A stretch of 13,320 bases of DNA from Nanobdellota archaeon. Its GTDB lineage: Archaea; Nanobdellota; Nanobdellia; Woesearchaeales; UBA12501. The position numbers were made by a program, and so were the translations under genes. Below, piece by piece: positions 1-13,320 of this stretch. The notes beneath the pieces are model-generated. The model saw nothing but the letters and a program-made list of their open reading frames with translations. It did not search any database and was not told the DNA's origin. The stretch's first letter is position 1; each line of letters starts with the position of its first letter. The stretch covers positions 1-13,320 of the forward strand of contig JAHJCS010000246.1 in the NCBI GenBank assembly GCA_018812465.1, read 5' to 3'.

Positions 1-1885
1 AATCCTTTCCATTCTTGTCCTTATACTCTATTGTGATGGCCAGTGTGTTGACTCCCTCATTGAGATCCTTGCCTTTGAGATTCAGATCATAAGCAATATC
101 CTTGTCAATGTAAGGGTAATAATGCTCGATATCAGTTCTTGCACCAGAGATAAGAACCTTGACTTCCTGGGGCTCTGAATCAGACTCCTTTTTTGCGCTG
201 AATCTCACATTAAAGAGATCCCTGAATCTCACTTCAGAAGGAAAATCAATATCAGCAATGCTCATATCAGGTTTGTCCATCCCATAGAAACTTATAGTAT
301 TTATCTTGGATATCTGGTCATTGGTTATGCTTAGGATAACATCATTCTGGCCCTTCTTGATTCCATGGATAGTGAAATTCATTGCCTTCTCCTGGGTGAT
401 ACCAATATGGCTTTCCCGGCAGTCATCCTTCATGCAGATGTTCATGTTCTTCAGGAAAACATTTCCAGTATTTGTGAGGAAACACTGAAGAATGGGTTTA
501 TCATACTGGTAATACTCTTCTTTTTCAAAGCTACAGTCTACTTTGAGGTTTTTAGAATATGCTTTGCTTTCCTCTTCTTTTATCATTGAGGAGATCTGAT
601 GTATCTCATCAAGACTATGTTCTCCTGCATCATTAACAGAGGTGAAAGAAGCATCGCCTGATGCATTCTGAAGAGTGTATGCATGGAACGGGAATGTATA
701 GATATAATCCTTATCCAGATCCTCATCCACTTTGATTATCCAGGAGATCTCCTTGACCTCTCCTGGCCTTAGAAGGATATGTTTTTTGGTTTCATCAAGA
801 TTTGTTATCCTGTTTGTCTGAGAAAGATATACATCCTTTGATACATAATAATCTCTCATGTTAAGCACAGATGCTGTGATCAGGTTATAGGATCCAAAAC
901 CGATATTATCATCTAACACATCCATGATTATTGAGACATCAGCGCCTCTGTTAGGCCCTATCTCGATCACAGCTACATTAGTATCCAGATCATCAAGGTC
1001 CAGGGAAACTCCTGGTTCTGCCCTCCATTGATATGATGAAGTTATCTTTCCTGCGTCCTCTGAAGCCTTGCTGAAGATATGGGTTGGGTCTATCCACCCA
1101 TATTCTCCGTAGGTCACATCATAGGGCACCCAGCCATAACCTGGGAAATATACTTCTGCCCAGCCATGAGGACCCCATTTCTCTGGAAACTGAGGTGAAT
1201 CAGTGTATGATATGCCTGCGACAAACCTTGCAGGTATGCCTAATGACCTTAGCATAGATATGAACAAAGAAGTCAGCTCATCACAAACTCCTTCCCTGTT
1301 CTCAATGACCCAGCTTGCCTTCTGAGTAGCCTCTGCATTGACTGTTGAGAAATTGTACTGGATGTTAGTGTTGACCCAGAAGGCGATAGTATCAACAACA
1401 TCTATAAGATCATCTTTTCCACTAGCAAGTTCAGAAGCAAGATTTATTATATCATCATTCAGGTCTATTATCTCAGCAGGCTGTGTGAAAACTTTTATCT
1501 CATCAGGAACATCCACAAAAGGGAAATTCATCTTCCTCGTGATGGTTATGGGATCATCTTTTACCTTGACTTTAGAACGCATAGTTATAGGCAATCTCTG
1601 CTTCCCCGGATTAAGCCACTCAAATACAACTGAATCATCAAGGAATTTAGGTTCTGGCTCAAAGTCTGACTCAAGAATATCCTGCCCAAGGACCTGTTTA
1701 GGAAAGAAAGAGATGTTAGCCAATATGAAATCTATGTCAGGATTGGAATTGAAAGATTTGATAGTCACACTTGTAGAAAGATCAACATCAAGCACAAGAT
1801 ACTTGCTGTTATAGAACCATAATTCATCTGCATACACAGTAGGTAAGATAAGAATTAATGCTAGGATAAAGAGTGTTTTATTCAT
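1..1885 (-). CDS. Secreted transglutaminase-like protein (3' end outside window)
   Basis: Translating the minus strand from ATG at 1885 gives 628 codons with no stop to the window edge, so the C-terminus is missing. Residues 1-19 form a signal peptide (hydrophobic core FILALILILP, likely cut after VYA). Residues about 160-265 are a transglutaminase-like (papain-fold) core: GVCDE carries the nucleophile Cys201, GPHGWAEVY carries His240, and PYDVT carries Asp256, in the family's order and spacing. The remainder to residue 628 is beta-rich and Ig/CARDB-like, with the wording of archaeal surface proteins (LTNTGNVFLKN, GVNTLAITIEY). The predicted role is an extracellular peptidase or crosslinking enzyme acting on surface proteins; the family includes proteases as well as transamidases, so the reaction is open. 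GAGG 4 nt before the ATG is a Shine-Dalgarno, so this gene has a leader, unlike most neighbours. Its upstream region is the last relic of the tRNA-Ser 3' end. Confidence 0.88.
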   Translation of the reverse strand, partial: MNKTLFILALILILPTVYADELWFYNSKYLVLDVDLSTSVTIKSFNSNPDIDFILANISFFPKQVLGQDILESDFEPEPKFLDDSVVFEWLNPGKQRLPITMRSKVKVKDDPITITRKMNFPFVDVPDEIKVFTQPAEIIDLNDDIINLASELASGKDDLIDVVDTIAFWVNTNIQYNFSTVNAEATQKASWVIENREGVCDELTSLFISMLRSLGIPARFVAGISYTDSPQFPEKWGPHGWAEVYFPGYGWVPYDVTYGEYGWIDPTHIFSKASEDAGKITSSYQWRAEPGVSLDLDDLDTNVAVIEIGPNRGADVSIIMDVLDDNIGFGSYNLITASVLNMRDYYVSKDVYLSQTNRITNLDETKKHILLRPGEVKEISWIIKVDEDLDKDYIYTFPFHAYTLQNASGDASFTSVNDAGEHSLDEIHQISSMIKEEESKAYSKNLKVDCSFEKEEYYQYDKPILQCFLTNTGNVFLKNMNICMKDDCRESHIGITQEKAMNFTIHGIKKGQNDVILSITNDQISKINTISFYGMDKPDMSIADIDFPSEVRFRDLFNVRFSAKKESDSEPQEVKVLISGARTDIEHYYPYIDKDIAYDLNLKGKDLNEGVNTLAITIEYKDKNGKD

Positions 1886-1924
1886 GATTCCTCTTTTTTG
1901 ATGAAATGGATGTTAATGAAAATA

Positions 1925-1944
1925 AACGCCACGGCTGAGATTTG
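1925..1944 (-). repeat. Outermost, diverged copy of tRNA-Ser 3' end
   Basis: Twenty bases match the acceptor and T-stem end of tRNA-Ser(GCU) at 2172-2191 with one mismatch (CCGTGGC instead of CCGCGGC in the tRNA sense). It lies 125 bp from the next copy (2050). Decay at this outer position fits it being the oldest gene end. Its outer flank, CGTTTATTTTC on the minus strand, is the only AT-rich box at roughly promoter distance from the 1885 start codon. Confidence 0.75.
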
Positions 1945-2042
1945 GGAACGAACGGTTTCGCCCCTTCACGACGAGATTAGTGTGGGACATCCTTGCCATG
2001 CTCGGAGTCCCACTCCATGCGCTTTTTGATATATATTATTTA
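1945..2042 (-). mobile_element. Hairpin insert C, between 2nd and 3rd tRNA-Ser 3' ends
   Basis: Non-coding stretch of about 98 bp. In the tRNA sense it reads AT-rich linker, then GCATGGA, a 7-bp stem GTGGGAC/GTCCCAC (2013-2007 with 1988-1982), then ACTAATCT (1981-1974), and a weak second hairpin before the tRNA end copy. CATGGAG before the stem and CACTAATCT after it recur in the insert behind the 5S gene (9831-9870), where the stem has compensatory changes. The shared sequence is directly seen; calling it a mobile element is inference, since no transposase or terminal inverted repeat is present. Confidence 0.5.
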
Positions 2043-2077
2043 ATTATGAAACGCCGCGGCTGAGATTTGAACTCAGA
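2043..2077 (-). repeat. Perfect 35-bp copy of tRNA-Ser 3' end
   Basis: Identical to 2164-2198 at an offset of 121 bp. It covers the T-arm, the acceptor 3' strand, the discriminator base and about 9 nt of trailer of tRNA-Ser(GCU). No matching 5' acceptor strand (GCCGCGG) lies within tRNA distance, so this is a gene-end copy and not a second tRNA. Duplicated tRNA 3' ends that include the T-arm are what site-specific integration into tRNA genes leaves behind, but here the intervening DNA is only 86 bp. Confidence 0.9.
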
Positions 2078-2163
2078 GCACGGTTCGCTCCGTGCACACG
2101 CGGAGCTGGTGCAACATCGATTTCATCGAGTTGCACGAACTATGAAGCCATTTGGCAATATTT
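2078..2163 (-). mobile_element. Hairpin insert B, directly downstream of tRNA-Ser
   Basis: Three hairpins fill this non-coding stretch. 2078-2095 is GCACGG/CCGTGC with a 6-nt loop. 2109-2136 is GTGCAAC/GTTGCAC enclosing ATCGAT/ATCGA with a 3-nt loop. 2147-2156 is GCCA/TGGC. In the tRNA sense GTGTGCACGGAG leads into the first of these, and the same 12 bases lead into the last hairpin of the insert behind 5S (9873-9884). In both inserts that hairpin touches the duplicated gene end, which suggests it marks the element boundary. Confidence 0.55.
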
Positions 2164-2172
2164 ATTATGAAA

Positions 2173-2256
2173 CGCCGCGGCTGAGATTTGAACTCAGATA
2201 TCCCGAAGGAAACAGGATTAGCAATCCTGCGCAATACCAGGTTATGCGACCGCGGC
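2173..2256 (-). tRNA. tRNA-Ser(GCU)
   Basis: The minus strand folds as a class II tRNA of 84 nt: acceptor GCCGCGG (2256-2250) with CCGCGGC (2180-2174), a short D-stem GCA/TGC, anticodon stem CAGGA/TCCTG around loop TTGCTAA (anticodon GCT), a long variable arm (TCC..GGGA), T-stem CTGAG/CTCAG with loop TTCAAAT, and discriminator G, as expected for serine. It reads AGC/AGU codons. No CCA is encoded and no intron is seen. It is the only complete copy: the first 17 nt recur at 2426-2442 and the last third recurs at 2043-2077 and 1925-1944, with hairpin-rich inserts between. Confidence 0.93.
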
Positions 2257-2260
2257 ATTG

Positions 2261-2425
2261 ATGCATCGCTCTCTTACCGCAGATGATATTTAATCATCCT
2301 TTCTCGGACCATTCTGAGCGAAGCGAGGATACGATGAAAACCTCAGGTTTTCAGCGTGCCAAAAATCCTTTGGATTTTTGAGCATGGTCCTTAGTGGCCG
2401 GATCAAGGAAGAAGACCCTTGAGCT
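2261..2425. mobile_element. Hairpin insert D, between 5' relic and intact tRNA-Ser
   Basis: 165 bp of non-coding DNA flanked by a 21-bp direct repeat (2240-2260 and 2426-2446). It is packed with stems: GATGAT/ATCATC (2282-2298); an outer GGACCAT/ATGGTCC (2306-2312, 2384-2390) that encloses ACG-A-TGAAAACC/GGTTTTCA-G-CGT (2331-2357) and CAAAAATCC/GGATTTTTG (2360-2380); and TCAAGG/CCTTGA (about 2403-2422). The enclosed set draws as a three- or four-way junction. It carries GAGCGAAGCGAGG (2316-2328), which also forms a loop in the insert behind 5S. Kinship with inserts A-C is weaker than among those three. No coding potential is seen. Confidence 0.5.
2286..2293 (-). promoter_or_regulatory. TATA box for intact tRNA-Ser, inside insert D
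   Basis: Minus-strand TTAAATAT is centred about 33 nt before tRNA base 1. An archaeal start about 27 nt downstream of the box would leave a leader of about 6 nt, which RNase P would remove. The box sits in the loop of a perfect 6-bp inverted repeat (2282-2298). If used, the insert itself supplies the promoter of the tRNA it separated from its old one. Confidence 0.5.
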
Positions 2426-2446
2426 GGTTATGCGACCGCGGCATTG
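2426..2446 (-). repeat. 5' relic of tRNA-Ser (21-bp copy)
   Basis: Identical to 2240-2260. In the tRNA sense it is CAAT followed by tRNA bases 1-17, stopping in the D-loop. The match ends abruptly on both sides. It sits at the correct distance from a TATA box at 2468-2477, so this looks like the original 5' end of the gene, left behind when insert D entered. Confidence 0.9.
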
Positions 2447-2467
2447 GTTATTGGGACTTAAACGCCT

Positions 2468-2477
2468 CTTTTTATAG
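2468..2477 (-). promoter_or_regulatory. Probable original tRNA-Ser promoter (TATA box)
   Basis: Minus-strand CTATAAAAAG is centred about 30 nt before base 1 of the 5' relic (2442), giving a leader of about 4 nt. It is a better TATA box than the one in insert D. Transcription from here would yield relic, insert D, intact tRNA and the downstream copies in one RNA. Confidence 0.5.
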
Positions 2478-2502
2478 TTTTCCATAGATAATACCAAAAA
2501 GA

Positions 2503-2511
2503 TTTATAAAT
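2503..2511 (+). promoter_or_regulatory. TATA box of initiator tRNA
   Basis: TTTATAAAT preceded by the purine-rich CAAAAAGA (BRE-like). The centre is 28 nt before tRNA base 1 at 2535, so the transcript should begin at or next to the mature 5' end. Confidence 0.75.
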
Positions 2512-2534
2512 GGTGTGTTTTTTGGAATAGTTAT

Positions 2535-2609
2535 AGCGAGGTGGGGCAGCCAGGAGTGCCCGTTGGGCTCATAACCCAAAGGTCGGTGGTTCAAATCCAC
2601 CCCTCGCTA
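2535..2609 (+). tRNA. Initiator tRNA-Met (CAU)
   Basis: A 75-nt class I cloverleaf: acceptor AGCGAGG/CCTCGCT with discriminator A, D-stem GGGC/GCCC, anticodon stem TTGGG/CCCAA around loop CTCATAA (anticodon CAT), variable AGGTC, T-stem GGTGG/CCACC with loop TTCAAAT. The A1-U72 first pair and the three consecutive G-C pairs at the base of the anticodon stem are the archaeal initiator signature, which separates it from elongator tRNA-Met and tRNA-Ile2. No CCA is encoded and no intron is seen. It is transcribed divergently from tRNA-Ser. Unlike tRNA-Ser, its ends show no duplication. Confidence 0.95.
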
Positions 2610-2660
2610 GTTTATTCTTCTAGTTTACATTCATTCGGTTTTAGATTATATCAAAAACTA

Positions 2661-2668
2661 TTTATATA
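2661..2668 (+). promoter_or_regulatory. TATA box of the HPF-like gene
   Basis: TTTATATA. Counting about 27 nt from its centre puts the transcription start at about 2690, on the ATG at 2689. This supports a leaderless mRNA starting at that ATG over the GTG at 2683. Confidence 0.6.
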
Positions 2669-2688
2669 TGTGAACAAATTATGTGAAT

Positions 2689-2997
2689 ATGGAAGAAATC
2701 CAGTTCAAAGGGGTTAGTGAGCTCAGCAAAGAGGAAAAAGAGATTGTGAATAAGCTTTCTACAGAATATTATGCTAAGATAAAAAGAAAACTGCATAATG
2801 ATACTTCATTACAGCTTCATATCAAGGCCCATTCAAAAGGCGGAGAGAGGAAGAAGTATTCTGCCCATCTGAGGGTTATAGCTCCAACAAAGACACTTGA
2901 GTCTAAGGAAGATGACTGGGATCTCGCAAGAACCCTTCATAAAGTATATAAGAATATGGAGACAGAAGTTAATAAAACATTCAAGAACCGTGCCTGA
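2689..2997 (+). CDS. Small HPF/RaiA-like protein, 102 aa
   Basis: The protein begins MEEIQFKGVSELSKEE; an in-frame GTG two codons upstream (2683) would add MN. An N-terminal helix (LSKEEKEIVNKLSTEYYAKI) is followed by two strand-like segments (LQLHIKAHSK, KKYSAHLRVIAP) and a C-terminal helix (DWDLARTLHKVYKNMETEVNKTF). This strand-strand-helix order with a D-L-A-x-x-L-H-x-V-x-x-x-M helix resembles the ribosome hibernation factors HPF/RaiA, which sit on the small subunit during starvation. The size fits the short form. The similarity is a pattern judged by eye with no invariant residue to check, so the function is tentative. It lies upstream of the RNase HII gene, which has its own TATA box. 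Confidence 0.72.
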   Translation: MEEIQFKGVSELSKEEKEIVNKLSTEYYAKIKRKLHNDTSLQLHIKAHSKGGERKKYSAHLRVIAPTKTLESKEDDWDLARTLHKVYKNMETEVNKTFKNRA

Positions 2998-3011
2998 TTT
3001 CTTTCAATACC

Positions 3012-3019
3012 TTTAAATA
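3012..3019 (+). promoter_or_regulatory. TATA box of rnhB
   Basis: TTTAAATA, centred about 27 nt before the ATG at 3042, so the mRNA is predicted to be leaderless. It follows the HPF-like stop codon by 14 nt. Confidence 0.6.
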
Positions 3020-3041
3020 CAACAATGACCTATTCTTTATT

Positions 3042-3695
3042 ATGACATTGATAGCAGGAATTGATGAAGCTGGCAGAGGGCCATTGATAGGGCCAATGGT
3101 CATGGCAGGAGTGACTATTGAGAAAGAGGATGAAGCTAGACTGGCAGCTATTGGAGTGAAGGACTCAAAGAAGATAGCTCCTGCTAAGCGGGAGATATTG
3201 TTTGATCAGATAAAGGGCATTGCAAAGGATATAAAAATTATAATAATAGAACCTGCAGTCATTGATTATTATGTAGAATCAGAGAACAAGAACCTCAACT
3301 GGCTTGAGGCTGACAAGACAATAGACATCCTTAATGGCATCAAAGCAGAGAAGGCATACATTGACTGCCCCAGCAACAACATCTCATCTTATACCAGCTA
3401 TCTAAGGACAAAACTAAAAACAAAGATTGAGCTTAAAGTAGAACATAAGGCAGATGATACATATCTTGTTGCAGGTGCTGCTTCGATAATGGCAAAAGTG
3501 ACCAGGGACAGGGAGATAGAGAAGATAAAAAAGAAGATAGGAAAGGAATTTGGTTCTGGTTATCCTTCTGATCCAGTCACAAAAAGATTTGTTGAAGAAA
3601 ATTGGAACAAGTATCCAAAAATATTCAGACATAGCTGGGAAACATACAAGAAAATTGCTGAAAAACAGCACCAGAGCAGTCTTGGAGAATTCTAG
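3042..3695 (+). CDS. rnhB: Ribonuclease HII
   Basis: A type 2 RNase H of 217 aa, the usual archaeal length. It cleaves the RNA strand of RNA-DNA hybrids and starts removal of ribonucleotides embedded in DNA. GIDEAGRGPLIGPMV at residues 6-20 gives the DEAGRG signature with Asp8 and Glu9; AYID supplies Asp108; HKADDTYLVAGAASIMAKV supplies Asp138 and the following conserved helix; GSGYPSDPVT is the late conserved loop. All four metal-binding acids are present. The last residues QSSLGEF (Gln211, Leu214, Phe217) have the spacing of a PCNA-interacting peptide, ending in one aromatic residue instead of two. Its stop lies 9 bp from the stop of the convergent surface-protein gene. Confidence 0.96.
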   Translation: MTLIAGIDEAGRGPLIGPMVMAGVTIEKEDEARLAAIGVKDSKKIAPAKREILFDQIKGIAKDIKIIIIEPAVIDYYVESENKNLNWLEADKTIDILNGIKAEKAYIDCPSNNISSYTSYLRTKLKTKIELKVEHKADDTYLVAGAASIMAKVTRDREIEKIKKKIGKEFGSGYPSDPVTKRFVEENWNKYPKIFRHSWETYKKIAEKQHQSSLGEF

Positions 3696-3704
3696 AACGC
3701 CATT

Positions 3705-6700
3705 CTAAGTCATCAGATTAAATGTTGTTGTCTCCATCACGCTACCACCATATTTGTCAGTGCATCTGATATAATAAGTGTATTCTTTGTCTTCTTCTAG
3801 GCCAGGGAGAATGGCCCTAAAATCCCTGTGAGATGCCTTCTCCATGCTGAGAAAAGCATAGGGATTGTCATTGAACCCACATTTTATCTCATTCTGGGTG
3901 ATATCCTCTGAGACCCTGACTGTGATCTCTTCCTCAGATGAGCTTATGACTCCTGATGGTTTTATCTCAATTATTTTCAGCTCATCTGCCTTTGAAATGA
4001 GATAATGATAGCTTTGTTCAGGTATATTCTGGGCAGGAGCATATGAATCCAGGCATTTAATATAAAACTGGAATGTCCTGTTCAAAAATTCTGGCTCTGT
4101 AAGATTCATGCATTCAAAGGTGAGCTTTGAGCTTTCTTGAAGATCTGCATTATATGAACAGATTGAGTGGCTTCCATAATCCATGCAACCCATTGCTTGC
4201 ATCTGATCATTATTATCCAATGCAAAGCTGCACTTTGCACTCTCATTGATTCTGAGTATGATCCTAGGTGTTGAGTAGTCCAATTCTATAGAATCCTCTC
4301 CTTGAAGGTTTTTCCTGAATCTCAGGTCTATTGTATCATTATAGATAATTATCCTTTCTGGGTTCACATCCACTGTCTTGTTTCTATTGGTGATATCTAG
4401 GTTTAGCACATAATTGCCAAGATTGTTCCTGTCTTTCTCCTCAAGATCAAAGTGAGCGCTGCATGAATAAGTGCCTTTCTTAAGGTCTTCTGAGATTATG
4501 CAGGAATCAAAAGATCCTTTCATAGATGAAAAATCTGTATCCTGCAAAGAATACCTGCAAGATTTAGATTCACCTAGATAAAGGTCCAGCCTTATCTCTG
4601 AAGAGTTGATGCCAAAGACAAGATTATCAAGCATTTCAGCAGGAACTCCTATAACAGACTCATTGAGAGTCAGGTAATCCATTGGATTTGCATTATCAAA
4701 ACCTGAACTGTATGATTCAATGCCCTGAATCAGTGGTGCAGGAGAAGTGAACATCCTGAGGGAATGACTCATTATGCTTTTTGGATTATCAGCACAGATT
4801 ATGAAAATATCATTATCAGCAAACGGTGTGCGTATCTCTGCAGAGCATTCGTATGTGCCTCCTGCAATAGGTGTTATGCCATAATCTCCCGTGAGGCATG
4901 AGAAACTGTAATTCATGATGTCAAAACCAGTATCATAATAATCATATCTGCACTCAGAAGGCTCATCCAGATATATTCTGAGAGTGACTGTCTCATCAAG
5001 AGGATTCATCTTGCCGTTATTTGGAGGGTCAGTAGTGATTATGACAGGGGCCTCTTCATCAGTATATCCATAATCAACAATGAACTGTATAAAGACCTGA
5101 TTCTCATTCTTATTGCCTGACCGGTCTGTGCAGTCAAAGAAAAGATAGTATCCTCCTTTGTCAAACTGCGTCAACAAGCCTCTCACTACCTGATCCACAT
5201 CATATCTCACATCAGTGAGCAGGCTGGATATCTTCTCTACTTTTGGTTTTATCTGTTTTATGAAATCATTGCCAGTTATCCTGCCATAGATCTCAAGCTC
5301 AGGACCAAGACTCTCAGATATAGAATCCATTATGCTTTTGATATTGTAGATCAGATCCACAAGACTTCTTGTTGAGGCAAAGTTTATTGATTCATAAAGG
5401 GTTTCTGGTATCACCAGCCTTGGAGGCATTCTTATTGTGATGTTGTGTTTTGTCCTGAATACACCATCACCGATAAGCACTGTCTGAAGACTGTATCCCT
5501 CAATCCTTGGTGTCAGGCTTACACTGCATCTTGTCTCTTCATCAGTCTTTATTCCTACTGTGAATGGCTTGTGAGGCCTGACAGGCTCTATTATCCTGAA
5601 TCCTTCATAGCCTGCAAGAGAGGTCCTCTCAAGGCCATACTGAGATGATATTGTATCAATATCTATATCTACTTTTGGTGAACTGAAGTCCATTATATGC
5701 ATCTTACTGCATAAAGGAACACCTTCTTTTATCTCAAACTGGCATTTCTCGCTGATGCTCTTGCATCTGTACTCTGTGCAAGGCCTGACCAGATCATAGG
5801 AGCACAAGCTGCAGTCCCCTTCTTCAGGAGGCATCCAGAGATTGCAGATTGAGAAATCCTCAATCTCAAGCTTCTGTCTTGATACAAAAGGATTAGCATA
5901 AGCGCTCGGGCTTATCTTGGATATCTGATTGAAGAAACTGGACAGTGAAGCAACAAACACGGATAGAGTGCTGAAATGCTGCTGTACTGATTCAACAACT
6001 CTTGAGGACTTCCTTTCAAATCCAAGATTAAGCTTCCATCTTGTCCCATCAGAAAGAGGGTTTGTGTTAAGTCCTTCTTCAGGATAAGCTGTGCGGTTCA
6101 CATTCTTAAGGATGTCTGTCTCATAGAATCCAGTCATTGTCAGATCATCATTGAAGTTCCTGTAATTGCCGCAGTCTCCCTGAGAATAGCAGTATCTGGC
6201 AGCGCTGTCCAGCCATTCCTGAGGGCAGGTCAGTCCAGTGCATTTCTCTTTCTGATTTCCCCTAAGACAGATGTCTGCACCCTCATTCTCCCAGAACCTG
6301 AGTCCTGGAGGCACTTCTGGGATGCACTTTCCCTGAGTCTCAAGATCAGAATCCCAATAACAGTCCCTGAATCTCTTGTCATCACAGCATGATTTTGAAT
6401 CACATTGCAAACATGTCTGCCATCTGTTGGGCCTGCACACTGCTTTAGACTTTCCTGAGATGAAACCTTCAGAACAAAGCTCCTGCCTAAAGTCCCTGCA
6501 ATCTTCTATGATGACCTGGCCATTAATGCAACTTTGTTTGTAATGTCTTGTGCCTACATAATCATATCCCTCTCCGACTATAGAATCATAAGCGCACCAG
6601 GATTCTCCATGCACTCTTCCCTCAGAAGAGCAGTCATTGCATGCTGCACCAACACATGGCTCTCGTGGCTCGTATGAAGCAGTGCATGAACAGTCCACAT

Positions 6701-7610
6701 CAGGATTGTAGTCTCCTGCAAGAGAGATGCATCTGAGAGGATCCACATTCTTGAAGCACATGTCAGACATGCTGTCAAAGCAGCACCCAAAATAATCTTC
6801 TTTCTGCTCAATATAATCACCTGATGTGGGAAGTCCCTGCAAAGCGAACTGGAAAGAATACCCCTCTTTTGACAGGATATATACTCTGTCAGGATAAGGC
6901 CTGTGCTTCTCTATTATCACATCAGCCCCATACTTGACCATCCATTCATCTATGTCAAAATATCCAGATGTGACCTCTTTGTTTATTACTGACTGCGCAA
7001 CAGAGTGGAGCCTTCCAAGAGGATAATCAAGTGTTGACTGATAATCTGATATAGAGATAGCATAATCTCCGAAAGTCATATTGACTGGATAATTGACATG
7101 CACCGAGATATCATTCTTGGCAATATCCACATAGACAGTCATCTCTCCTGCCTGGATATTATCCACAAACCTCTTGAACTCAGAAAGCTTCACACATTTC
7201 TTGATCCTGTTCTTGAACTCATAAGACAGCTCATATTCCATCTGTCCTTTTGTCAGCATTGAGTTTATGCAGCTGTATGAAGGGTCAAGTCCTTCAGCAT
7301 AGCATAGATAATTTATCTTTGACTTGTTGTAATAGAGAAAGCTTGGTTCTGAAGGCCATAATGTGCCTCCCTGCAGCCCTATCTTGATCAGAGGGTCTTT
7401 TGCCTCCTGCTGTATGCATTCCTCTACATAAAGCCTAAATGTGGACTCAAGCTTTGGTCCTGTTAATTCCTCACCTTTGAGCTGCAGAGGGGTTGTGCTT
7501 GATATATAACCCACATAGATAGCAGCAAAGACTATTATCAGCACAACAAGACCTATTATCATGAAAGGAGTGATCTGCCCTTTATTAGAAAACCTCTTTT
7601 TTGGATACAT
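3705..7610 (-). CDS. Giant membrane-anchored Cys-rich surface protein, 1301 aa
   Basis: I chose ATG 7610 because a TATA box at 7633-7641 is centred 27 nt upstream; an upstream in-frame ATG (7658) lies before that box. Residues 4-36 are basic residues, then KGQITPF and one hydrophobic segment (IIGLVVLIIVFAAIYV), which looks like a class III/type IV pilin-like signal with a possible cut between Gly11 and Gln12, though Glu at +5 of classic pilins is absent. No other membrane segment is evident. Residues about 276-480 hold about 25 cysteines (CCFDSMSDMC, CNDC, CLQCDSKSCC), pointing to disulfides outside the cell. The rest is beta-rich with repeated Ig-like segments (residues about 850-1301) bearing paired Cys. 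The function is unknown; a surface or envelope scaffold is the likeliest role. The neighbouring TrmB regulator ends 55 bp upstream. Confidence 0.85.
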   Translation of the reverse strand: MYPKKRFSNKGQITPFMIIGLVVLIIVFAAIYVGYISSTTPLQLKGEELTGPKLESTFRLYVEECIQQEAKDPLIKIGLQGGTLWPSEPSFLYYNKSKINYLCYAEGLDPSYSCINSMLTKGQMEYELSYEFKNRIKKCVKLSEFKRFVDNIQAGEMTVYVDIAKNDISVHVNYPVNMTFGDYAISISDYQSTLDYPLGRLHSVAQSVINKEVTSGYFDIDEWMVKYGADVIIEKHRPYPDRVYILSKEGYSFQFALQGLPTSGDYIEQKEDYFGCCFDSMSDMCFKNVDPLRCISLAGDYNPDVDCSCTASYEPREPCVGAACNDCSSEGRVHGESWCAYDSIVGEGYDYVGTRHYKQSCINGQVIIEDCRDFRQELCSEGFISGKSKAVCRPNRWQTCLQCDSKSCCDDKRFRDCYWDSDLETQGKCIPEVPPGLRFWENEGADICLRGNQKEKCTGLTCPQEWLDSAARYCYSQGDCGNYRNFNDDLTMTGFYETDILKNVNRTAYPEEGLNTNPLSDGTRWKLNLGFERKSSRVVESVQQHFSTLSVFVASLSSFFNQISKISPSAYANPFVSRQKLEIEDFSICNLWMPPEEGDCSLCSYDLVRPCTEYRCKSISEKCQFEIKEGVPLCSKMHIMDFSSPKVDIDIDTISSQYGLERTSLAGYEGFRIIEPVRPHKPFTVGIKTDEETRCSVSLTPRIEGYSLQTVLIGDGVFRTKHNITIRMPPRLVIPETLYESINFASTRSLVDLIYNIKSIMDSISESLGPELEIYGRITGNDFIKQIKPKVEKISSLLTDVRYDVDQVVRGLLTQFDKGGYYLFFDCTDRSGNKNENQVFIQFIVDYGYTDEEAPVIITTDPPNNGKMNPLDETVTLRIYLDEPSECRYDYYDTGFDIMNYSFSCLTGDYGITPIAGGTYECSAEIRTPFADNDIFIICADNPKSIMSHSLRMFTSPAPLIQGIESYSSGFDNANPMDYLTLNESVIGVPAEMLDNLVFGINSSEIRLDLYLGESKSCRYSLQDTDFSSMKGSFDSCIISEDLKKGTYSCSAHFDLEEKDRNNLGNYVLNLDITNRNKTVDVNPERIIIYNDTIDLRFRKNLQGEDSIELDYSTPRIILRINESAKCSFALDNNDQMQAMGCMDYGSHSICSYNADLQESSKLTFECMNLTEPEFLNRTFQFYIKCLDSYAPAQNIPEQSYHYLISKADELKIIEIKPSGVISSSEEEITVRVSEDITQNEIKCGFNDNPYAFLSMEKASHRDFRAILPGLEEDKEYTYYIRCTDKYGGSVMETTTFNLMT

Positions 7611-7632
7611 ACTATTTAAACATCCTAGTTTC

Positions 7633-7641
7633 CTATATAAA
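7633..7641 (-). promoter_or_regulatory. TATA box of the giant surface-protein gene
   Basis: Minus-strand TTTATATAG; its centre is 27 nt before ATG 7610. This placement decides the start codon and shows the gene can be transcribed independently of the regulator gene upstream. Confidence 0.65.
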
Positions 7642-7665
7642 AGTTGTGATGGTTTCATTTTATCT

Positions 7666-8412
7666 TTATTTTAGGGGTTTTGCTTTTCTCCACAGCTCAT
7701 CAAAATATGCTGCCATGTGTTTTGCCATGGATGTGTGCTCAAAGTAGATGTTTGTCCTGTCTTTCCGGTCTTTTGGATTTATAACAGCGATTCTTGCTTC
7801 TTTATCATCCATGATATGGATTCTTATCTCCTCAACATTCAGATATCTGACTTCGCAGCCAATCTTTAAATCCTCTTTTATTAGTTTTAGGGTATCCTTA
7901 TTCAGAAGAGTAGTTATAAATCTGATCTTAACCCCTCTTTTTATTGCATCAACTAACTGGCGGTGCATAGAATAAGAGCGTTCTTCATAAGTGAAGATAT
8001 ATCTTATCTCATTTACTGCATTCTGGATAAAATAATCATTCAGTGCGAACCTTGCTTTGCCTGAGAGCACCTGTATCTTTTCAATAATCTTTTCTTCTCT
8101 AAGAGGCCTGCCAATCTGTTTTATTTCTTTGATGATTTCATCTTTAATGCCTGAAAGATCATCAACTTTCTGTTTGACAAGATTATTGATTGCAATCTCT
8201 GGTTTATTAGCATGGAATATCTGGGGCTTTATGCCCACAATATGGACAAAATCCTTTTCAGAAAGCTTATGTAGGGCCCAGTATACCTTGCCATGAGGCA
8301 CTTTAGAGAGTTTACTTACCTTTCCTCCTGTGATGGGCCCATGCTGCAGAAGAGCCAGGTATGTGCTTATTTCATACTCTGTAAGGCCTAATTCCTTCAG
8401 CTTAGCAATCAT
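7666..8412 (-). CDS. TrmB-family transcriptional regulator, 248 aa
   Basis: Residues 1-75 are the TrmB winged helix-turn-helix: MIAKLKELGLTEYEISTYLALLQHGPITGGKVSKLSKVPHGKVYWAL is the characteristic LxxLGLTxYExxxYxALLxxGxxTxxxIxxxSxVPxxxVYxxL pattern. A coiled linker (KQKVDDLSGIKDEIIKEIKQI) follows, then an alpha/beta effector-like domain (residues about 120-245; YIFTYEERSYS, GVKIRFITTL, EVRYLNVEEIRIHIMDD). The protein is shorter than sugar-sensing TrmB proteins of about 340 aa, so it resembles the shorter TrmB-like proteins whose ligands are mostly unknown. It is encoded divergently from the swivelling-domain gene and upstream of the giant surface-protein gene, both of which are candidate targets. 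An 18-bp inverted repeat lies between its TATA box and ATG, suggesting self-repression. The start fits a leaderless transcript. Confidence 0.88.
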   Translation of the reverse strand: MIAKLKELGLTEYEISTYLALLQHGPITGGKVSKLSKVPHGKVYWALHKLSEKDFVHIVGIKPQIFHANKPEIAINNLVKQKVDDLSGIKDEIIKEIKQIGRPLREEKIIEKIQVLSGKARFALNDYFIQNAVNEIRYIFTYEERSYSMHRQLVDAIKRGVKIRFITTLLNKDTLKLIKEDLKIGCEVRYLNVEEIRIHIMDDKEARIAVINPKDRKDRTNIYFEHTSMAKHMAAYFDELWRKAKPLK

Positions 8413-8430
8413 ACAACCACTTGTAGTTGT
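8413..8430. promoter_or_regulatory. Inverted repeat, probable TrmB operator
   Basis: ACAACCAC-TT-GTAGTTGT pairs 7 of 8 positions between its half-sites. It covers the expected transcription start and ends exactly at the ATG of the regulator gene, a position at which a bound protein would block transcription. TrmB-type proteins often repress their own genes. A half-site-like CCACTACAA (8503-8511) lies just before the divergent gene at 8523. Confidence 0.5.
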
Positions 8431-8436
8431 TACATA

Positions 8437-8446
8437 CTTTTAAATG
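8437..8446 (-). promoter_or_regulatory. TATA box of the TrmB-family gene
   Basis: Minus-strand ATTTAAAAG; centre about 29 nt before ATG 8412. Confidence 0.6.
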
Positions 8447-8489
8447 TTTCTGATATAGATTTAGTTTTGGGATTGGGGGGTTAGGAAAA

Positions 8490-8498
8490 AATATATAA
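8490..8498 (+). promoter_or_regulatory. TATA box of the swivelling-domain gene
   Basis: AATATATAA after the A-run GGAAAAA (BRE-like); centre about 28 nt before ATG 8523, so the mRNA is predicted to be leaderless. Confidence 0.65.
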
Positions 8499-8522
8499 GC
8501 AGCCACTACAAAAGGGACTTTT

Positions 8523-9575
8523 ATGGCAAAGTATGAAGAGTACGCAAAAGAAGATTGGATTCAGAGTTATGCGGGCAAATGGGGTTTCCTTAGCAGCTCA
8601 TTCTTTGGATATTTCCATACAAAGTTATTCAAGGAATATCTTGGTTTTGGGCCTAAGACAGTCATAATGATAATAAGGAAGGGGTTCAGCAAAGGCAACT
8701 TCAAGAAGAAAGAGCTTGAGGGAGTCTCAAAGAAACTTGCAGGAATCCTGATAAAAGACAAGAAGACATCGGATGAATGGAGTTCAAGACTCAAGAAAAA
8801 TGCAGACAAGTTCAGAAAGTTTATGGAAAAAGAGAAAGGAAAGGCGATGTCTTCAGATAAACTAGATCAGTTTGAAAAAGTATACAGTGATTATTATGTG
8901 ATACACAGATGCGTGAAGCAGGTTCCTGACCAGCTGCCACCAGACCTGCTTGATGAACTGCTTCCTGTTCTTGAGAAGGCAAGACTTTATTCAGAGAGTG
9001 TTTTTGATTTGTTTGAGGAATTTATCTATTCATTTGCAGATGCAGTGGCCAAGAATACCGGATACACAAAAGAGCAGATTACCAGCATAACAAGAGAAGA
9101 GTACTGGGAGTATCTCAAGTCAGGCTCTCTTCCTGACAAGAAACTGCTTGAACAAAGATATGAGAAGACTGCAATGATATTCAAGAATGGGATTCCTGAG
9201 ATAATACTGGGCGATGAAGTTGACGAACTGGAGACTTCTCTTCTTGGGTCTTTTGAAGGAGTACTTAAAGGCAAATCAGCTTATCCAGGAAAAGTCAAAG
9301 GAACTGTTAGGTTGATATTGGATCCTAATAGGGTAGGGAATTTCAAGAAAGGAGACATCCTAGTCACAGGCATGACAAGGCCAGAATACCTTCCCCTCAT
9401 GGAAAAAGCAGGAGCAGTTGTGACAGACGCAGGAGGCATACTCTGCCATGCAGCCATTGTCGCGAGAGAGCTTAAGATTCCTACAGTGATAGGCACAGAG
9501 AAAGCCACAAAGGTCTTCAAAGACGGCGATAAGGTGCTTGTGGACGCTGATAAAGGCATTATAACAAAGAGTTAG
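8523..9575 (+). CDS. Protein with PEP-utilising phosphohistidine (swivelling) domain, 350 aa
   Basis: Residues about 250-350 are the mobile phosphohistidine domain of PEP synthase and pyruvate phosphate dikinase: YPGKVKGTVRLI, GDILVTGMTRPEYLPLM, then TDAGGILCHAAIVARELKIP, with His309 as the predicted phosphorylated residue. In the full enzymes this domain carries phosphate between an ATP-grasp domain and a PEP/pyruvate-binding barrel. Both are missing here. Residues 1-245 are instead helical and charged, with no ATP-grasp motif that I can see (KWGFLSSSFFGYFHTKLF; PPDLLDELLPVLEKARL). The protein may be a phosphocarrier working with partners encoded elsewhere, or the N-terminal half may be a new catalytic or binding module. 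It is divergent from the TrmB-family gene across 110 bp containing a candidate operator, so it may be that regulator's target. Confidence 0.85.
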   Translation: MAKYEEYAKEDWIQSYAGKWGFLSSSFFGYFHTKLFKEYLGFGPKTVIMIIRKGFSKGNFKKKELEGVSKKLAGILIKDKKTSDEWSSRLKKNADKFRKFMEKEKGKAMSSDKLDQFEKVYSDYYVIHRCVKQVPDQLPPDLLDELLPVLEKARLYSESVFDLFEEFIYSFADAVAKNTGYTKEQITSITREEYWEYLKSGSLPDKKLLEQRYEKTAMIFKNGIPEIILGDEVDELETSLLGSFEGVLKGKSAYPGKVKGTVRLILDPNRVGNFKKGDILVTGMTRPEYLPLMEKAGAVVTDAGGILCHAAIVARELKIPTVIGTEKATKVFKDGDKVLVDADKGIITKS

Positions 9576-9597
9576 TGTTCTTGAACATATTTTTATA
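9576..9597 (+). terminator. Palindrome and T-run after the swivelling-domain gene
   Basis: TGTTCTTGAACA directly follows the stop codon and is followed by ATATTTTTATATATA. The T-run is enough for archaeal termination; the palindrome is too tight to be a strong RNA hairpin and could be a protein site. Confidence 0.35.
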
Positions 9598-9631
9598 TAT
9601 AATTCATATATAAAACACTAATACCGAAACG

Positions 9632-9640
9632 TTTATAAAT
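9632..9640 (+). promoter_or_regulatory. 5S rRNA promoter (BRE and TATA box)
   Basis: CGAAACG followed by TTTATAAAT. The box centre is 27 nt before 9663, the predicted first base of 5S. The 5S gene therefore has its own promoter and is not part of a 16S-23S operon here. Confidence 0.8.
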
Positions 9641-9662
9641 AACCTCTTATCCAGATACTCTT

Positions 9663-9776
9663 GAACGGCCATAGTGGTGTGGTTTACCTGTACCCATTCC
9701 GAACACAGCAGTCAAGCATGCCAACGTTCTCGGTAGTACTGCACTTCTGTGCGGGAAGCCGAGGAAGCTGTTCACC
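9663..9776 (+). rRNA. rrf: 5S ribosomal RNA
   Basis: The core TACCCATTCCGAACACAG and the later GGTAGTACTG are 5S signatures. The terminal helix pairs GAACGGC (9663-9669) with GCTGTTC (9767-9773). The length of about 114 nt is slightly short for 5S. It is a stand-alone gene with no 16S or 23S in the window. A 21-bp repeat of its 3' end (9758-9778) recurs at 9894-9914, so there are two possible 3' ends. The first copy is not followed by a T-run and the second is. The 3' end given here is that of the first, contiguous copy; a few bases either way are uncertain. Confidence 0.92.
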
Positions 9777-9778
9777 TT

Positions 9779-9893
9779 ATATTTCTAGTAAGAGTATATT
9801 GATTTTAAATTTGAATCTTGCTAGCATCACATGGAGAGGGATTGAGCGAAGCGAAATCCCTCACTAATCTATGTGTGCACGGAGTAAAGCCGT
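9779..9893 (+). mobile_element. Hairpin insert A, behind 5S rRNA
   Basis: 115 bp of non-coding DNA made of three stems in series. First, CTAGTAAGA/TCTTGCTAG (9785-9793, 9816-9824, one G-U pair). Second, GCATCACAT/ATGTGTGC (9824-9832, 9871-9878, one bulge) enclosing GAGGGATT/AATCCCTC (9836-9843, 9855-9862) with loop GAGCGAAGCGA. Third, GCACGG/CCGTGC (9877-9882, 9890-9895), which touches the second copy of the 5S 3' end. It shares CATGGAG and CACTAATCT with insert C and GTGTGCACGGAG with insert B at the tRNA-Ser locus. The structure and the shared sequence are seen directly; mobility is inferred from occurrence at two unrelated RNA genes. Confidence 0.6.
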
Positions 9894-9914
9894 GCCGAGG
9901 AAGCTGTTCACCTT
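9894..9914 (+). repeat. Second copy of the 5S rRNA 3' end (21 bp)
   Basis: Identical to 9758-9778, 136 bp upstream. It includes the 3' strand of the terminal helix (GCTGTTC), which could pair with the 5S 5' end as well as the first copy can. The adjoining T-run suggests this was the original gene end before the insert arrived. Confidence 0.92.
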
Positions 9915-9918
9915 TTTT
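9913..9918 (+). terminator. T-run terminator behind outer 5S end
   Basis: Six T residues directly after GTTCACC. The inner 5S end is followed by TTATATTTC and has no equivalent run, so most transcripts probably cross insert A before ending here. Confidence 0.55.
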
Positions 9919-10002
9919 CAATAATTCTCTGAGATATCTTGAATATAATGATAGAATTATGGAGTTCTCATTCTTATCAGATTCTAAGAATCAATATTAT
10001 TC

Positions 10003-10530
10003 CTAATAATAGAATTCAATGGGCATTTCTTTTCCAGGCTTTGTCTTTACCACAACTTTCTGTCTTGATTGCAGATATTCTGCAAGATTGAACCCTCTTG
10101 CCAGGCTAAGTACCTTGGCAGGAAGCTTGTTAAGACCAGGATTCTTTTCCAGTATGCCATCCAGGGTTTGGTATCCCTCCTCAAGCATATCTCCGAGAGC
10201 AGAAGCAGGCTCGATATCCTTTGTCCTGCCGAAGTATCTTTTTAGGGTTTTGAGACCTGAAGTATAAAGAAAAGAAGTACCATTAGTGTTGAATAGGATA
10301 GGCTTAACAGCCCATATTGACCCATGCCTCACTCTTGCATTCATCTGCCTTAGAACTCCCGGATCTTCTGGGCCTCCAAGAAATACATAAGCAACAGTGT
10401 CAAAACAGTATCTTGGGTTCATCCTTTTAGGGTCAACTACCCATATCTGCGCATCAGGAGATCCTTGAGATCTTGCAGCATATACTCTCTGCGCTTCAAC
10501 AACCCCCTCAAATTTCACTGGATATATCAA
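10003..10530 (-). CDS. Conserved-looking protein of unknown function, 175 aa
   Basis: I do not recognise the family. The start is probably TTG 10530: AGTGA, an SD-like match, lies 6 nt upstream. A GTG at 10518 is the alternative. The protein appears soluble, with no signal or membrane segment. The N-terminal half is strand-rich (PDAQIWVVDP, CFDTVAYVFLGGPED, SIWAVKPILFNTNGTSFLYTSG); a helical part follows (residues about 90-155; LKTLKRYFG, ALGDMLEEGYQTLDGIL, NLAEYLQSRQ) and a short strand tail (KVVVKTKPGKEMPIEFYY). It follows the NFACT gene in the same direction after 52 bp but has its own AT-rich box (ATTTAAATATTA, about 10571-10582), so linkage to that operon is uncertain. It converges on the 5S/insert A region. 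Confidence 0.75.
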   Translation of the reverse strand: MIYPVKFEGVVEAQRVYAARSQGSPDAQIWVVDPKRMNPRYCFDTVAYVFLGGPEDPGVLRQMNARVRHGSIWAVKPILFNTNGTSFLYTSGLKTLKRYFGRTKDIEPASALGDMLEEGYQTLDGILEKNPGLNKLPAKVLSLARGFNLAEYLQSRQKVVVKTKPGKEMPIEFYY

Positions 10531-10570
10531 TTTAAGTCACTTTTTGTAATAAACTGGGAATAATAAGTGA

Positions 10571-10582
10571 TAATATTTAAAT
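10571..10582 (-). promoter_or_regulatory. Possible TATA box of the 175-aa gene
   Basis: Minus-strand TTAAATATTA overlaps the stop of the NFACT gene. A start about 27 nt downstream (about 10549) leaves a short leader that contains the SD-like AGTGA. Confidence 0.4.
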
Positions 10583-11698
10583 TTATTCAATGTCAATCAT
10601 AACCTTTCCTTCCTTCTCATTTATCTCTTTTATCACTTTGTGACCTTTAAGCTTTTCCTTGATCTCTTTCCAGCTGTACTTCTTGCTTGCTTTGCCAAGC
10701 TCATCAAGGATATCCTTGATCTCTGAGTATCTTTCATAGATGAACTCGCCTTTTCTCTGGTCCTCTTCTGCGCTGTTCTTCTGTTTGAATATGTTCTTCT
10801 CCTGCATCTCTATTGATTTCTTTATCTTATCAAGTTCCTTGTTGACTGTCTTCTGCTTCTGTTCCTTGTCTTTGACTATCTGATGGCCAGTTATCACAGA
10901 ATCAAGGGCTTGATTATATGTTTCAGCTTTCTTCTGACCATATGATTTATATCCCTCAAGAGAGAAAGGCACTATGTCTATCACATCATTGTCTTTCATC
11001 ACAATCCGTGGATCTGGCTTGTTCTCAAGAAGCTTCCTGAGTGAAGAATATATTTTTTTGCCAGAGACTTCTTTAGGTTTTTTGTCCTTGTCTGTGCTGC
11101 TCTGTATGCATAGCTCCTCTGAGTATATGCCGCCGAGCCTGATATCAAGTGCAAGAGCCTTGACTATTGATTCCTGCTCTGAATTCTTTAGCAATGCACA
11201 GAACTCATCTTCTCCTATCTCAAAGAGATTGTGCTCTTGATTTGGAAACAGATACTTCTGGCCTGATTTTATCTCCCTGTCCTTGAAAGCCTGTATGTTC
11301 AGAGGAGAAAGTATCTTGTCATTCTGCACAAGTATTGTGTTGCCTGATCCGAACAGCTCTATGATGAGATTGAATTTGGATTCTTTGGTCTCTAGCTGGA
11401 TCTGGATTATCCTTTCTGAGCCAAGCTGACTGATGTTCTTGAGAATTGCATTGGAGAGCTTTTTTCTTAGGTAAGTGCAGAAACCATAAGGGTTCTGAGG
11501 ATTCTCTGGCTTATGCTCTGTGAAGTACATGAACTTGCCCTGTATCCTTAGAAGTCTCTTGCCTGCTCCGGTCTTATGGATCTGGAGGATTATGATATCA
11601 TTTTCTGGCTGGTATATCTTGTCAATCTTGCTATCTTCAATGCATTTAAGCTCGTCTACAAGATATCTGACTTCTATAGCAGAGAATTCTTTTTTCAT
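10583..11698 (-). CDS. NFACT-family protein (RqcH/Rqc2/NEMF), N-terminal half only, 371 aa
   Basis: The start is ATG 11698 (MKKEFSAIEVRYLVDEL), 1 nt after the upstream stop; a longer frame from 11758 would overlap that gene. Residues 1-190 are the NFACT-N domain: SAIEVRYLVDELK, YGFCTYLRKKLSNAI, then QLGSERIIQIQL and FGSGNTILV. Residues 195-235 could be the HhH region, and 270-345 are a long charged coiled coil (KEQKQKTVNKELDKIKKSIE). The family binds 60S/50S-type subunits carrying stalled peptidyl-tRNA and recruits tRNA for tailing. Full-length members have over 550 residues and continue into NFACT-R (DUF814). This one stops after KVMIDIE, and the next downstream gene is unrelated, so NFACT-R is lost or encoded elsewhere. 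Two acids needed for tailing in yeast Rqc2 (Asp9, Asp98) align with Glu9 and Glu95. Confidence 0.86.
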   Translation of the reverse strand: MKKEFSAIEVRYLVDELKCIEDSKIDKIYQPENDIIILQIHKTGAGKRLLRIQGKFMYFTEHKPENPQNPYGFCTYLRKKLSNAILKNISQLGSERIIQIQLETKESKFNLIIELFGSGNTILVQNDKILSPLNIQAFKDREIKSGQKYLFPNQEHNLFEIGEDEFCALLKNSEQESIVKALALDIRLGGIYSEELCIQSSTDKDKKPKEVSGKKIYSSLRKLLENKPDPRIVMKDNDVIDIVPFSLEGYKSYGQKKAETYNQALDSVITGHQIVKDKEQKQKTVNKELDKIKKSIEMQEKNIFKQKNSAEEDQRKGEFIYERYSEIKDILDELGKASKKYSWKEIKEKLKGHKVIKEINEKEGKVMIDIE

Positions 11699-11699
11699 C

Positions 11700-12080
11700 T
11701 TAACCACACACCTTATTATCCATTGTGAATCCGCATACCTGTTCCTTGAAATGCGCAAGATCAGCGTAACCGCTTATGAGCACAGAACCATCATGCATTA
11801 TGATGTATCCAACCATCAATGATTGTTCATATCTCATACTGCTGAAGTCAATACTTACTTCTTCAGAATAAGCCTTGAGGGACTCCTCAGCCCTAACACA
11901 TGAATTATCACACATATCTGGCTTCAGGAATATGATCTGCACTTGCTTTGCTTTGCTGCTCCCACAAGGGTATTGGCTCAAGAGAATGGCAAATAGAATA
12001 GAGATTAATAAAAGAAATAATAATACTGCTGCCAATGCCTTGTGGGTATAGCAGGAATCATGCCTCTTTTTCTTGACCAT
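11700..12080 (-). CDS. Small membrane-anchored thioredoxin-like protein, 126 aa
   Basis: Residues 1-13 are basic, residues 14-36 form one membrane helix (ALAAVLLFLLLISILFAILL), and the remainder (residues 37-126) would face outside. The outer part starts with a strand (KQVQIIFLKPD) then MCDNSCVRAEESLKAY, placing a CxxxC pair at the start of a helix, as in thioredoxin-fold proteins (which normally have CxxC). GYIIMHDGSVLISGYAD fits the next strands, and two further Cys are near the end (QVCGF, KVCG). It is probably a degenerate extracytoplasmic thiol protein or metal-binding protein; the family is not certain. It lies 1 nt after the SurA-thioredoxin fusion and 1 nt before the NFACT gene, so translation of the three is probably coupled. 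Confidence 0.75.
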   Translation of the reverse strand: MVKKKRHDSCYTHKALAAVLLFLLLISILFAILLSQYPCGSSKAKQVQIIFLKPDMCDNSCVRAEESLKAYSEEVSIDFSSMRYEQSLMVGYIIMHDGSVLISGYADLAHFKEQVCGFTMDNKVCG

Positions 12081-12081
12081 T

Positions 12082-13176: not shown

Positions 13177-13183
13177 TTTTTAT

Positions 13184-13190
13184 CCCTCTC
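13184..13190 (-). promoter_or_regulatory. Shine-Dalgarno of the SurA-thioredoxin gene
   Basis: GAGAGGG on the minus strand, 7 nt before TTG 13176, supports the non-ATG start and a leadered mRNA. AT-rich boxes at 13201-13217 and 13236-13250 are candidate TATA elements; I cannot choose between them. Confidence 0.5.
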
Positions 13191-13288
13191 TTAAATGATT
13201 GTATAAATACTTATAAGATGTGGTTTTATCTAGAACATTAATAAATCTTTTGGTGTTGTACTCCTATAGGTTGTCACTGTTTGGTTCC

Positions 13289-13301: not shown

Positions 13302-13320
13302 ATCAAAGGCCCAATAGTAT

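Follow-up and report, generated by a model that had tools for sequence, protein, structure and literature searches.

A gene-sparing mini-element of two hairpins at the ends of tRNA, 5S rRNA and protein genes in Woesearchaeota

Integrases often use the 3′ ends of tRNA genes as attachment sites, where the tRNA end stays whole, a second copy of it lies displaced, and serial insertions occur; integrated elements can also carry the diverged 3′ end of a protein gene. Integrons follow a cassette logic, and their attC sites are conserved as folded structures rather than as sequences.

Casposons target tRNA 3′ ends and the 3′-distal parts of protein genes, duplicating the target, and the accounts cited here describe an A. 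boonei casposase that requires the motif TCAAATC upstream of the target segment, together with target duplications of 1–27 nt (median 15) that overlap just 4–7 nt of the tRNA (PMC6614799, PMC4046053). The mORFs of fungal mitochondria supply the gene they enter with a new 3′ end, the resident one being left behind downstream (PMC3630166), and REPINs are miniature, non-autonomous hairpin DNAs that occur either solo or as inverted doublets (PMC3116915). The rRNA introns of Woesearchaeota, described in a paper on archaeal group I introns, are distinct from the hairpin unit considered below.

This paper describes a family of mobile, gene-sparing mini-elements of Woesearchaeota, whose mobility is well supported by their dispersal, by the repeats of gene ends beside them, and by sites unoccupied in a sister species. 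A literature search, with preprints and most subscription papers outside its scope, returned no description of such a family.

Inserts of the window and the unit they share

The window, i.e., the whole stretch of DNA that was analysed, comprises 13,320 nucleotides (contig JAHJCS010000246.1, positions 1 to 13,320) of the Nanobdellota archaeon assembly GCA_018812465.1, which totals 1.35 Mb in 280 contigs and is 79% complete. Its inserts A to D lie at a tRNA-Ser(GCU) gene and at the 5S rRNA gene, with the features listed here; R1 is the search model described further on.

about 1928..1944, minus strand: third, degenerate copy of the tRNA-Ser 3′ end (locus L030), bounding insert C (13-nt exact core; alignment)
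1945..2042, minus strand: insert C, with its unit at 1949–2013 (R1 match of 69.8 bits, among the nine training copies)
2043..2077, minus strand: second copy of the tRNA-Ser 3′ end with flank (exact 35-bp direct repeat)
2078..2163, minus strand: insert B (R1 match of 58.5 bits, among the nine training copies)
2164..2198, minus strand: tRNA-Ser 3′ end with 9 nt of flank, copy 1 of the 35-bp repeat (exact direct repeat)
2172..2257, minus strand: tRNA-Ser(GCU), host of inserts B, C and D (ARAGORN; Rfam RF00005, 54.9 bits at 2173–2256)
2240..2260, minus strand: tRNA-Ser 5′ end with 4 nt of flank, copy 1 of a 21-bp repeat (exact direct repeat)
2261..2425, plus strand: insert D, with the unit inverted relative to tRNA-Ser (terminal part recurs at other loci)
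2426..2446, minus strand: displaced copy of the tRNA-Ser 5′ end (exact 21-bp direct repeat)
9661..9776, plus strand: 5S rRNA gene, host of insert A (Rfam RF00001, 62.1 bits)
9758..9778, plus strand: 5S 3′ end, copy 1 of a 21-bp repeat (L047; read from the sequence; alignment)
9779..9893, plus strand: insert A (R1 match of 26.4 bits, E 5.7e-5, outside the training set)
9894..9914, plus strand: displaced copy of the 5S 3′ end (L047; read from the sequence; alignment)

The coordinates that a preliminary description had given for the four inserts and their gene-end copies are exact, direct repeats of 35, 21 and 21 bp being located there, and the sequence words it had reported as common to A and B and to A and C are present; inserts A, B and C align as a single unit of hairpin, linker and hairpin. 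In insert B, which has relatives at loci L019, L041 and L060, the unit occupies 2078–2136, the remainder is filler, and hairpin 2 touches the displaced copy of the tRNA-Ser 3′ end; in insert A, the R1 unit spans 9836–9895, and its final 2 nt are common to the copy of the 5S end. Insert D, as read from the sequence, consists at about 2306–2421 of an enlarged hairpin 1 and a terminal hairpin, GGATCAAGGAAGAAGACCCTTG, which ends 4 nt away from the displaced copy of the tRNA-Ser 5′ end. It is assigned to the family because its terminal hairpin recurs elsewhere (the terminal part is also present at L005, L017, L080 and other loci) and follows the common hairpin 1 in L045. Hairpin 1 of insert D (window 2306–2390) is expanded by two extra hairpins and is short in the related genomes G001, the sister species, and G002.

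The shared unit measures ∼62–70 bp and comprises hairpin 1 (7 bp, strongly covarying), a linker and hairpin 2. The mini-element of 85–165 bp proposed in the preliminary description thus stands as a family and has to be reduced in size, the remainder of each insert being largely site-specific filler between gene and unit. Among 22 bounded inserts, which span 64–165 bp, homology detected by BLAST is mostly limited to the unit, from ∼5 nt before hairpin 1 through hairpin 2, with extensions to the left in a few pairs (B/L041, L017/L005, L077/L033), and the idea that the filler is shared, transduced sequence was rejected on this basis. When these inserts were compared by BLAST with the collected loci, the G203 5S insert and the G075 insert matched only themselves.

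What is conserved in hairpin 1 is the structure rather than the sequence. Over 60 distinct rows its pairing holds in 98.3% of cells, all seven pairs show two-sided changes, and covariation reaches 0.661 compared to 0.243 in shuffles and at most 0.113 with slid partners, values that are to be read with the fact that the alignment had been fitted to the tested structure, which favours that structure. In 38 of these 60 rows the apical loop fits RC(RNA)GY, which shuffles do in 1.7 (maximum 7); GNA triloops are very stable DNA mini-hairpins. For hairpin 2, a simple and weak stem test finds 6 bp or more in 44 of 56 rows, where shuffles give a fraction of 0.43, and compensating changes can be read by eye from the rows (CAACGG/CCGTTG, GCACGG/CCGTGC, CAAATG/CATTTG). 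The hairpin structure that mini-elements of the REPIN or IS200-IS605 type require is therefore conserved, by covariation in hairpin 1 and weakly in hairpin 2.

The unit is dispersed within the genome and within the order. A DNA search of the window genome with 1925–2446 gave 13 matches, the window included, and stretches of B, C and D are found again at other places; at L007/L019, for instance, a B-like insert lies between a different tRNA and a copy of the 3′ end of that tRNA. From an alignment of twelve copies, nine were taken for model R1, which includes hairpin 1 only because the first alignments placed hairpin 2 one column off. R1 yields 22 matches at E<1e-3 in the window genome, 13 of them outside the nine training copies, and 30 at E<=1. 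Of the held-out copies, it recovers the 5S insert, at the E-value listed above, and the L014 insert at E 9.8e-12; the L013 insert is missed genome-wide at E<=1, and with filters off just a 22-nt fragment appears (E 0.93).

Counting the window genome each time, R1 matches 8 of 60 genomes of relatives (7 of 59 others), 32 of 287 sampled genomes of the order (31 of 286 others), and 25 of 371 sampled genomes of the phylum, all 25 being the window genome or members of the same genus, family or order. Many matches beyond the genus are weak (E 1e-8 to 1e-3), the E-values of R1 are rough and the larger runs used stricter filters, so that single weak matches may be due to chance and others may be missed. 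The further copies that a model search had been expected to uncover thus exist, both in this genome and in others of the order.

Two further arrangements were observed. Loci L046, L048, L049, L050 and L058 of the window genome are bigger inverted-repeat elements with the unit nested inside, and this group has the sequences CGCCGCCCTGACGCAGACGAGG... and GGCAGCAACAA...TTGTTGCTGCC. At L045 of the window genome and L078 of G051, in two families of the order, the unit lies just upstream of a similar short reading frame.

Gene ends, joints and sister species

The repeats of gene ends were assessed by matching the 45 nt that follow hairpin 2 against the 450 nt on the other side of the unit, past its tail, and swapped loci served as the control, in 66 matches that had locus sequence (23 from the window genome), or 65 once L115 was dropped as a slicing artefact. 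A repeat above the 99th percentile of the swaps was present at 24 of 65 copies, against 0.7 expected, and it starts 0–5 nt after the R1 match in 19 of these 24; the reverse comparison gave 8 of 65. In the window genome, 11 of 23 matches have such a repeat, namely at eight tRNAs (six identified by Rfam, L044 and L054 by eye), the 5S gene, the RNA-like gene of L041 and the protein gene of L033. Fewer than half of the copies thus have the gene-end repeat that had been expected at each of them, the test showing none at 41 of 65. RNA genes as the targets are confirmed for tRNA and 5S and have to be widened to protein genes, given that a protein-gene 3′ end is doubled on contig C35 of the window genome and at G001:C90. 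By eye, L036 (C138 of the window genome) and L037 (C129) have the same PEP synthase-like 3′ end and a unit, followed by different genes.

An independent view is provided by a census of tRNAs, which counted end copies that match exactly over 13 nt or more and lie no farther than 400 nt away, with swapped flanks as the control. In the window genome, copies of the 3′ end occur at 7 of 20 tRNAs (swaps 5/368), six of them real because that of L015 is merely the T-arm of a neighbouring tRNA, and copies of the 5′ end occur at 3 of 20 (swaps 1/368). The figures for G001 are 3/18 at 3′ ends (swaps 2/306) and 0/18 at 5′ ends (swaps 0/306), and those for G013, an assembly of 20 contigs from another family that is 99% complete, are 2/20 and 1/20, with swaps at 0/376 each. 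Judged by eye, the three tRNA inserts of G013 have the same hairpin-linker-hairpin plan, the 5′ one being inverted, and two of them get weak R1 scores (E 5e-4 and 0.067); in G203, again of another family, a 5S gene is arranged as in the case of insert A. The check suggested for related genomes, that tRNA and 5S genes have repeats of their ends beside them, is therefore borne out in other families of the order. A census by alignment score, whose counts are lower because the flanks of clustered tRNAs inflate the swaps, placed 5/19 3′ ends and 3/19 5′ ends of the window genome above the 99th percentile of the swaps, and 3/18 and 0/18 in G001. The Rfam model detects 18–20 tRNAs per genome (window genome, G001, G013), even at 99% completeness, and many tRNA matches are 95–134 nt long, which suggests introns and hence that the census misses genes.

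At sites with a gene-end copy, the unit meets the displaced copy with its hairpin-2 end, at that edge of the copy which is internal to the gene, and the host gene remains whole. At tRNA 3′ ends, the inner edge of the repeat is 16–26 nt from the gene end (17 cleanly read repeats), and at tRNA 5′ ends it is 11–26 nt from the start (six ends), positions that we take to be in or just before the T-arm and in or at the edge of the D-arm, respectively. For hairpin 2 this means the T-arm at 3′ ends and, with the unit inverted, the D-arm at 5′ ends; on either side the joint falls at the first hairpin arm encountered from outside.

Other units, as read by eye, are placed differently. At least ten abut the 5′ start of a gene by their hairpin-2 end, with no gene-end copy, among them L029, L042, L072, L074, L076 and L103 at tRNA starts and L075, L110, L111 and L118 at start codons of ribosomal-protein genes (named by eye); the unit before tRNA-Leu has the same position in the window genome, G001 and G051. 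The units of L113, L120 and L121 appear to lie inside a tRNA T-loop, with no flanking end copy, and are perhaps introns or broken genes.

The check for empty orthologous sites in a close relative gave five, i.e., sites occupied in the window genome and empty in G001, at tRNA-Ala, tRNA-Thr, elongator tRNA-Met, the 3′ side of tRNA-Ser and the 5′ side of tRNA-Phe (all but Ser named from anticodons by eye). The TGGAAAA that follows the displaced tRNA-Ala copy in the window genome directly follows the gene in G001, which identifies the distal end as the resident one. Both species have inserts at a tRNA with anticodon GCG (with different terminal hairpins), at the tRNA of L017/L099 and at the RNA-like gene of L041/L071. 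In G002, tRNA-Ser has a different insert, whose repeat includes 6 nt of G002 flank absent from the other two species. Insert D is common to the three species, at the same place in G001 and G002, and the gene and its copy have changed together, reading GGCACAACC in both for G001 and CGCATAACC in both for the window genome and G002. The RNA-like gene of L041/L071 is conserved, with complementary ends (GGATAGGCCCCC...GGGGGCCTAT), and has a unit and an end copy in the window genome and in G001; neither it nor L039 matched an Rfam family at E<=0.5.

Movement of the unit and rival explanations

The reading that we tentatively place first, at somewhat less than an even chance, is that a non-autonomous, two-hairpin mobile unit of ∼62–70 bp moves as a cassette of gene end, flank and unit from a related lineage. 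The cassette would come from the same gene in that lineage, the break would fall in the hairpin arm that is outermost in the target gene, and the arriving gene end would take over the role of the resident end, with hairpin 2 joined to the latter in its displaced position. A putative recombinase would act in trans, and the choice of the gene would be made by selection, because the gene keeps working only if the cassette brings the matching end. Neither a donor allele nor a circular form was observed, and the 41 of 65 copies that lack a gene-end repeat in the test above, as well as the units at gene starts that have none, speak against this reading.

The main competitor, which we regard as quite possible, is local duplication at insertion: much as in target-primed reverse transcription or in template switching during replication, the T- or D-arm would be nicked and the unit joined there by its hairpin-2 end, with a stagger both wide and variable, so that the gene-end copy is a long target-site duplication and the filler is either junk or decayed flank. 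The geometry is in its favour, since the insert has a constant end at hairpin 2 (within 5 nt in 19/24), whereas the filler and the outer edge of the repeat vary.

The sole case able to distinguish the two is the methyltransferase-domain gene of C35 in the window genome, whose last 34 codons (stop included) are doubled around a unit. The two ends differ at 15 of 34 codons, 14 silently and one with a change of residue (17 of 102 nt), whereas random placement of these changes alters the residue at 11.9 codons on average and at 7 at the minimum (2000 trials). Differences that are almost all silent imply that both ends evolved as functional protein ends, unlike a fresh, idle duplicate; the sequence of this gene therefore favours a carried end over a local copy, even if the doubled end could be the remnant of a tandem paralogue. 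Of the two options in the earlier formula, that the element 'carries or creates' its copy, the first fits better here: a brought-in end that would be diverged yet functional is seen at one protein gene, and tRNA ends are too conserved to tell.

The flanks speak on both sides. Across 17 RNA-gene loci the gene ends are 97% alike, a figure biased by the choice of these loci for their end copies, and over the following 26 nt the likeness is 65% (56% in swaps); such near-identical ends beside diverged flanks at several loci count against local duplication, with the same bias of choice. Beyond the exactly shared flank there is weak similarity (permutation p 0.0034, 17 loci), so the filler may be the diverged flank of a donor allele, which fits the carried reading. 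Conversely, 8 of 17 copies share at least 4 nt of local flank with the gene, against 1.8% of swaps, as local duplication also predicts, and this counts against carriage. Local duplication is also favoured by the G002 tRNA-Ser insert, which repeats the flank of G002 itself. The tandem cases L019 and L130 have no filler and look like local duplications. On balance, carried gene ends are slightly ahead.

The search for an enzyme covered eight unit-bearing genomes. Cas1 (PF01867) was found in none of them, five being at least 90% complete, with the control positive in 9/14, and it was rejected as the engine for these genomes. The Y1 transposase (PF01797) is present in 2/8, with none in the window genome, G001 or G002 (76–91% complete), and could possibly act from outside. 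Reverse transcriptase (PF00078) is present in 3/8, with none in the window genome or G001, both of them incomplete, and all three proteins gave no match in the window genome (79% complete), G001 (91% complete), G009 and G013. Template switching needs no transposase and is in line with these results; a reverse transcriptase in just 3/8 bearing genomes is a point against local duplication. A viral vector was also considered and set aside: three terminal-hairpin patterns, which are narrow, had 0 matches in viral contigs.

A more elaborate version of cassette transfer, which we consider unlikely, would be an integron-like shuffling of gene ends, in which a Woesearchaeota recombinase joins folded hairpins and the tRNA gene itself is a recombination site. 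Hairpin 2 would be joined with the T- or D-arm where the partner is an RNA gene, and with a hairpin close to the gene end where it is a protein gene; gene end, flank and unit would be excised as circles and inserted into other genomes, and selection would retain the circles that land in the same gene. Lineages would in this way exchange gene ends as cassettes by structure-guided recombination.

Improbable, too, is the view that the inserts are attachment-site scars, i.e., tiny satellites or remnants of integrated elements with the gene-end copies as attL and attR. The serial inserts at one gene (tRNA-Ser, L013, L016) are as this view predicts; a single unit combined with many gene ends, including 5′ ends, 5S and protein genes, is not, given that an integrase usually has one site, and no integrase gene is seen in inserts of 64–165 bp. 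It is most doubtful that the inserts, instead of being mobile DNA, are fixed functional RNA structures, such as hairpins for the processing or regulation of tRNA, 5S and other transcripts: the covariation does show a conserved structure, and the units before tRNA-Leu and insert D are kept in place in three genomes each, but the five sites are empty in G001, and the unit is found in either orientation with respect to the gene and within larger inverted repeats. An assembly artefact, which the fragmented state of the window genome and arrays that stop at contig ends might suggest, is scarcely credible in view of the same layout in the 20-contig G013 of another family and in other assemblies.

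What these observations describe is a mini-element family spread through an order of uncultured archaea that lands in highly conserved genes without breaking them, and they offer a handle on why unrelated mobile elements repeatedly target tRNA ends. If gene ends are carried between lineages, the family would also be a means of patching essential tRNA, rRNA and protein genes with ends of foreign origin.

Comparison with known systems

The closest analogues of the unit are casposons, mORFs, REPINs and integrase attachment sites, and membership is shown in none of them. With integrase attachment sites, it shares the whole tRNA end with a displaced copy and the serial insertions; the differences are that one unit type occurs at many different tRNAs, at 5S and at protein genes, 5′ ends included, and that the inserts hold no integrase. 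With integron attC sites it shares the conservation of a folded structure and the cassette logic, whereas the cassette would be a gene end and not a gene, and no attC core was recognised by eye. The casposase motif TCAAATC, in our reading, looks like a T-loop.

As the cited accounts present casposons (PMC6614799, PMC4046053), the class of target is alike and the enzyme and the duplicated segment differ: the Woesearchaeota copies start in the T- or D-arm, at 3′ ends 16–26 nt inside the gene in the 17 that were read, 5′ ends are used as well, and the eight unit-bearing genomes searched gave no Cas1. The likeness to REPINs lies in the head-out inverted doublets of the unit with a short spacer at L046/L050, L066 and L010; the abstract on REPINs places them in extragenic space and mentions no gene-end copies (PMC3116915), which the Woesearchaeota unit has, and the Y1 transposase of a REPIN/RAYT system is found in two of the eight bearing genomes, none of them among the three of this genus. 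Finally, as described in PMC3630166, mORFs encode a homing endonuclease, which the 22 bounded inserts (64–165 bp) are too short to encode, and they enter protein genes, whereas the unit is ∼65 bp long, noncoding and mostly at RNA genes; what the two would have in common is a host-gene end replaced on insertion.
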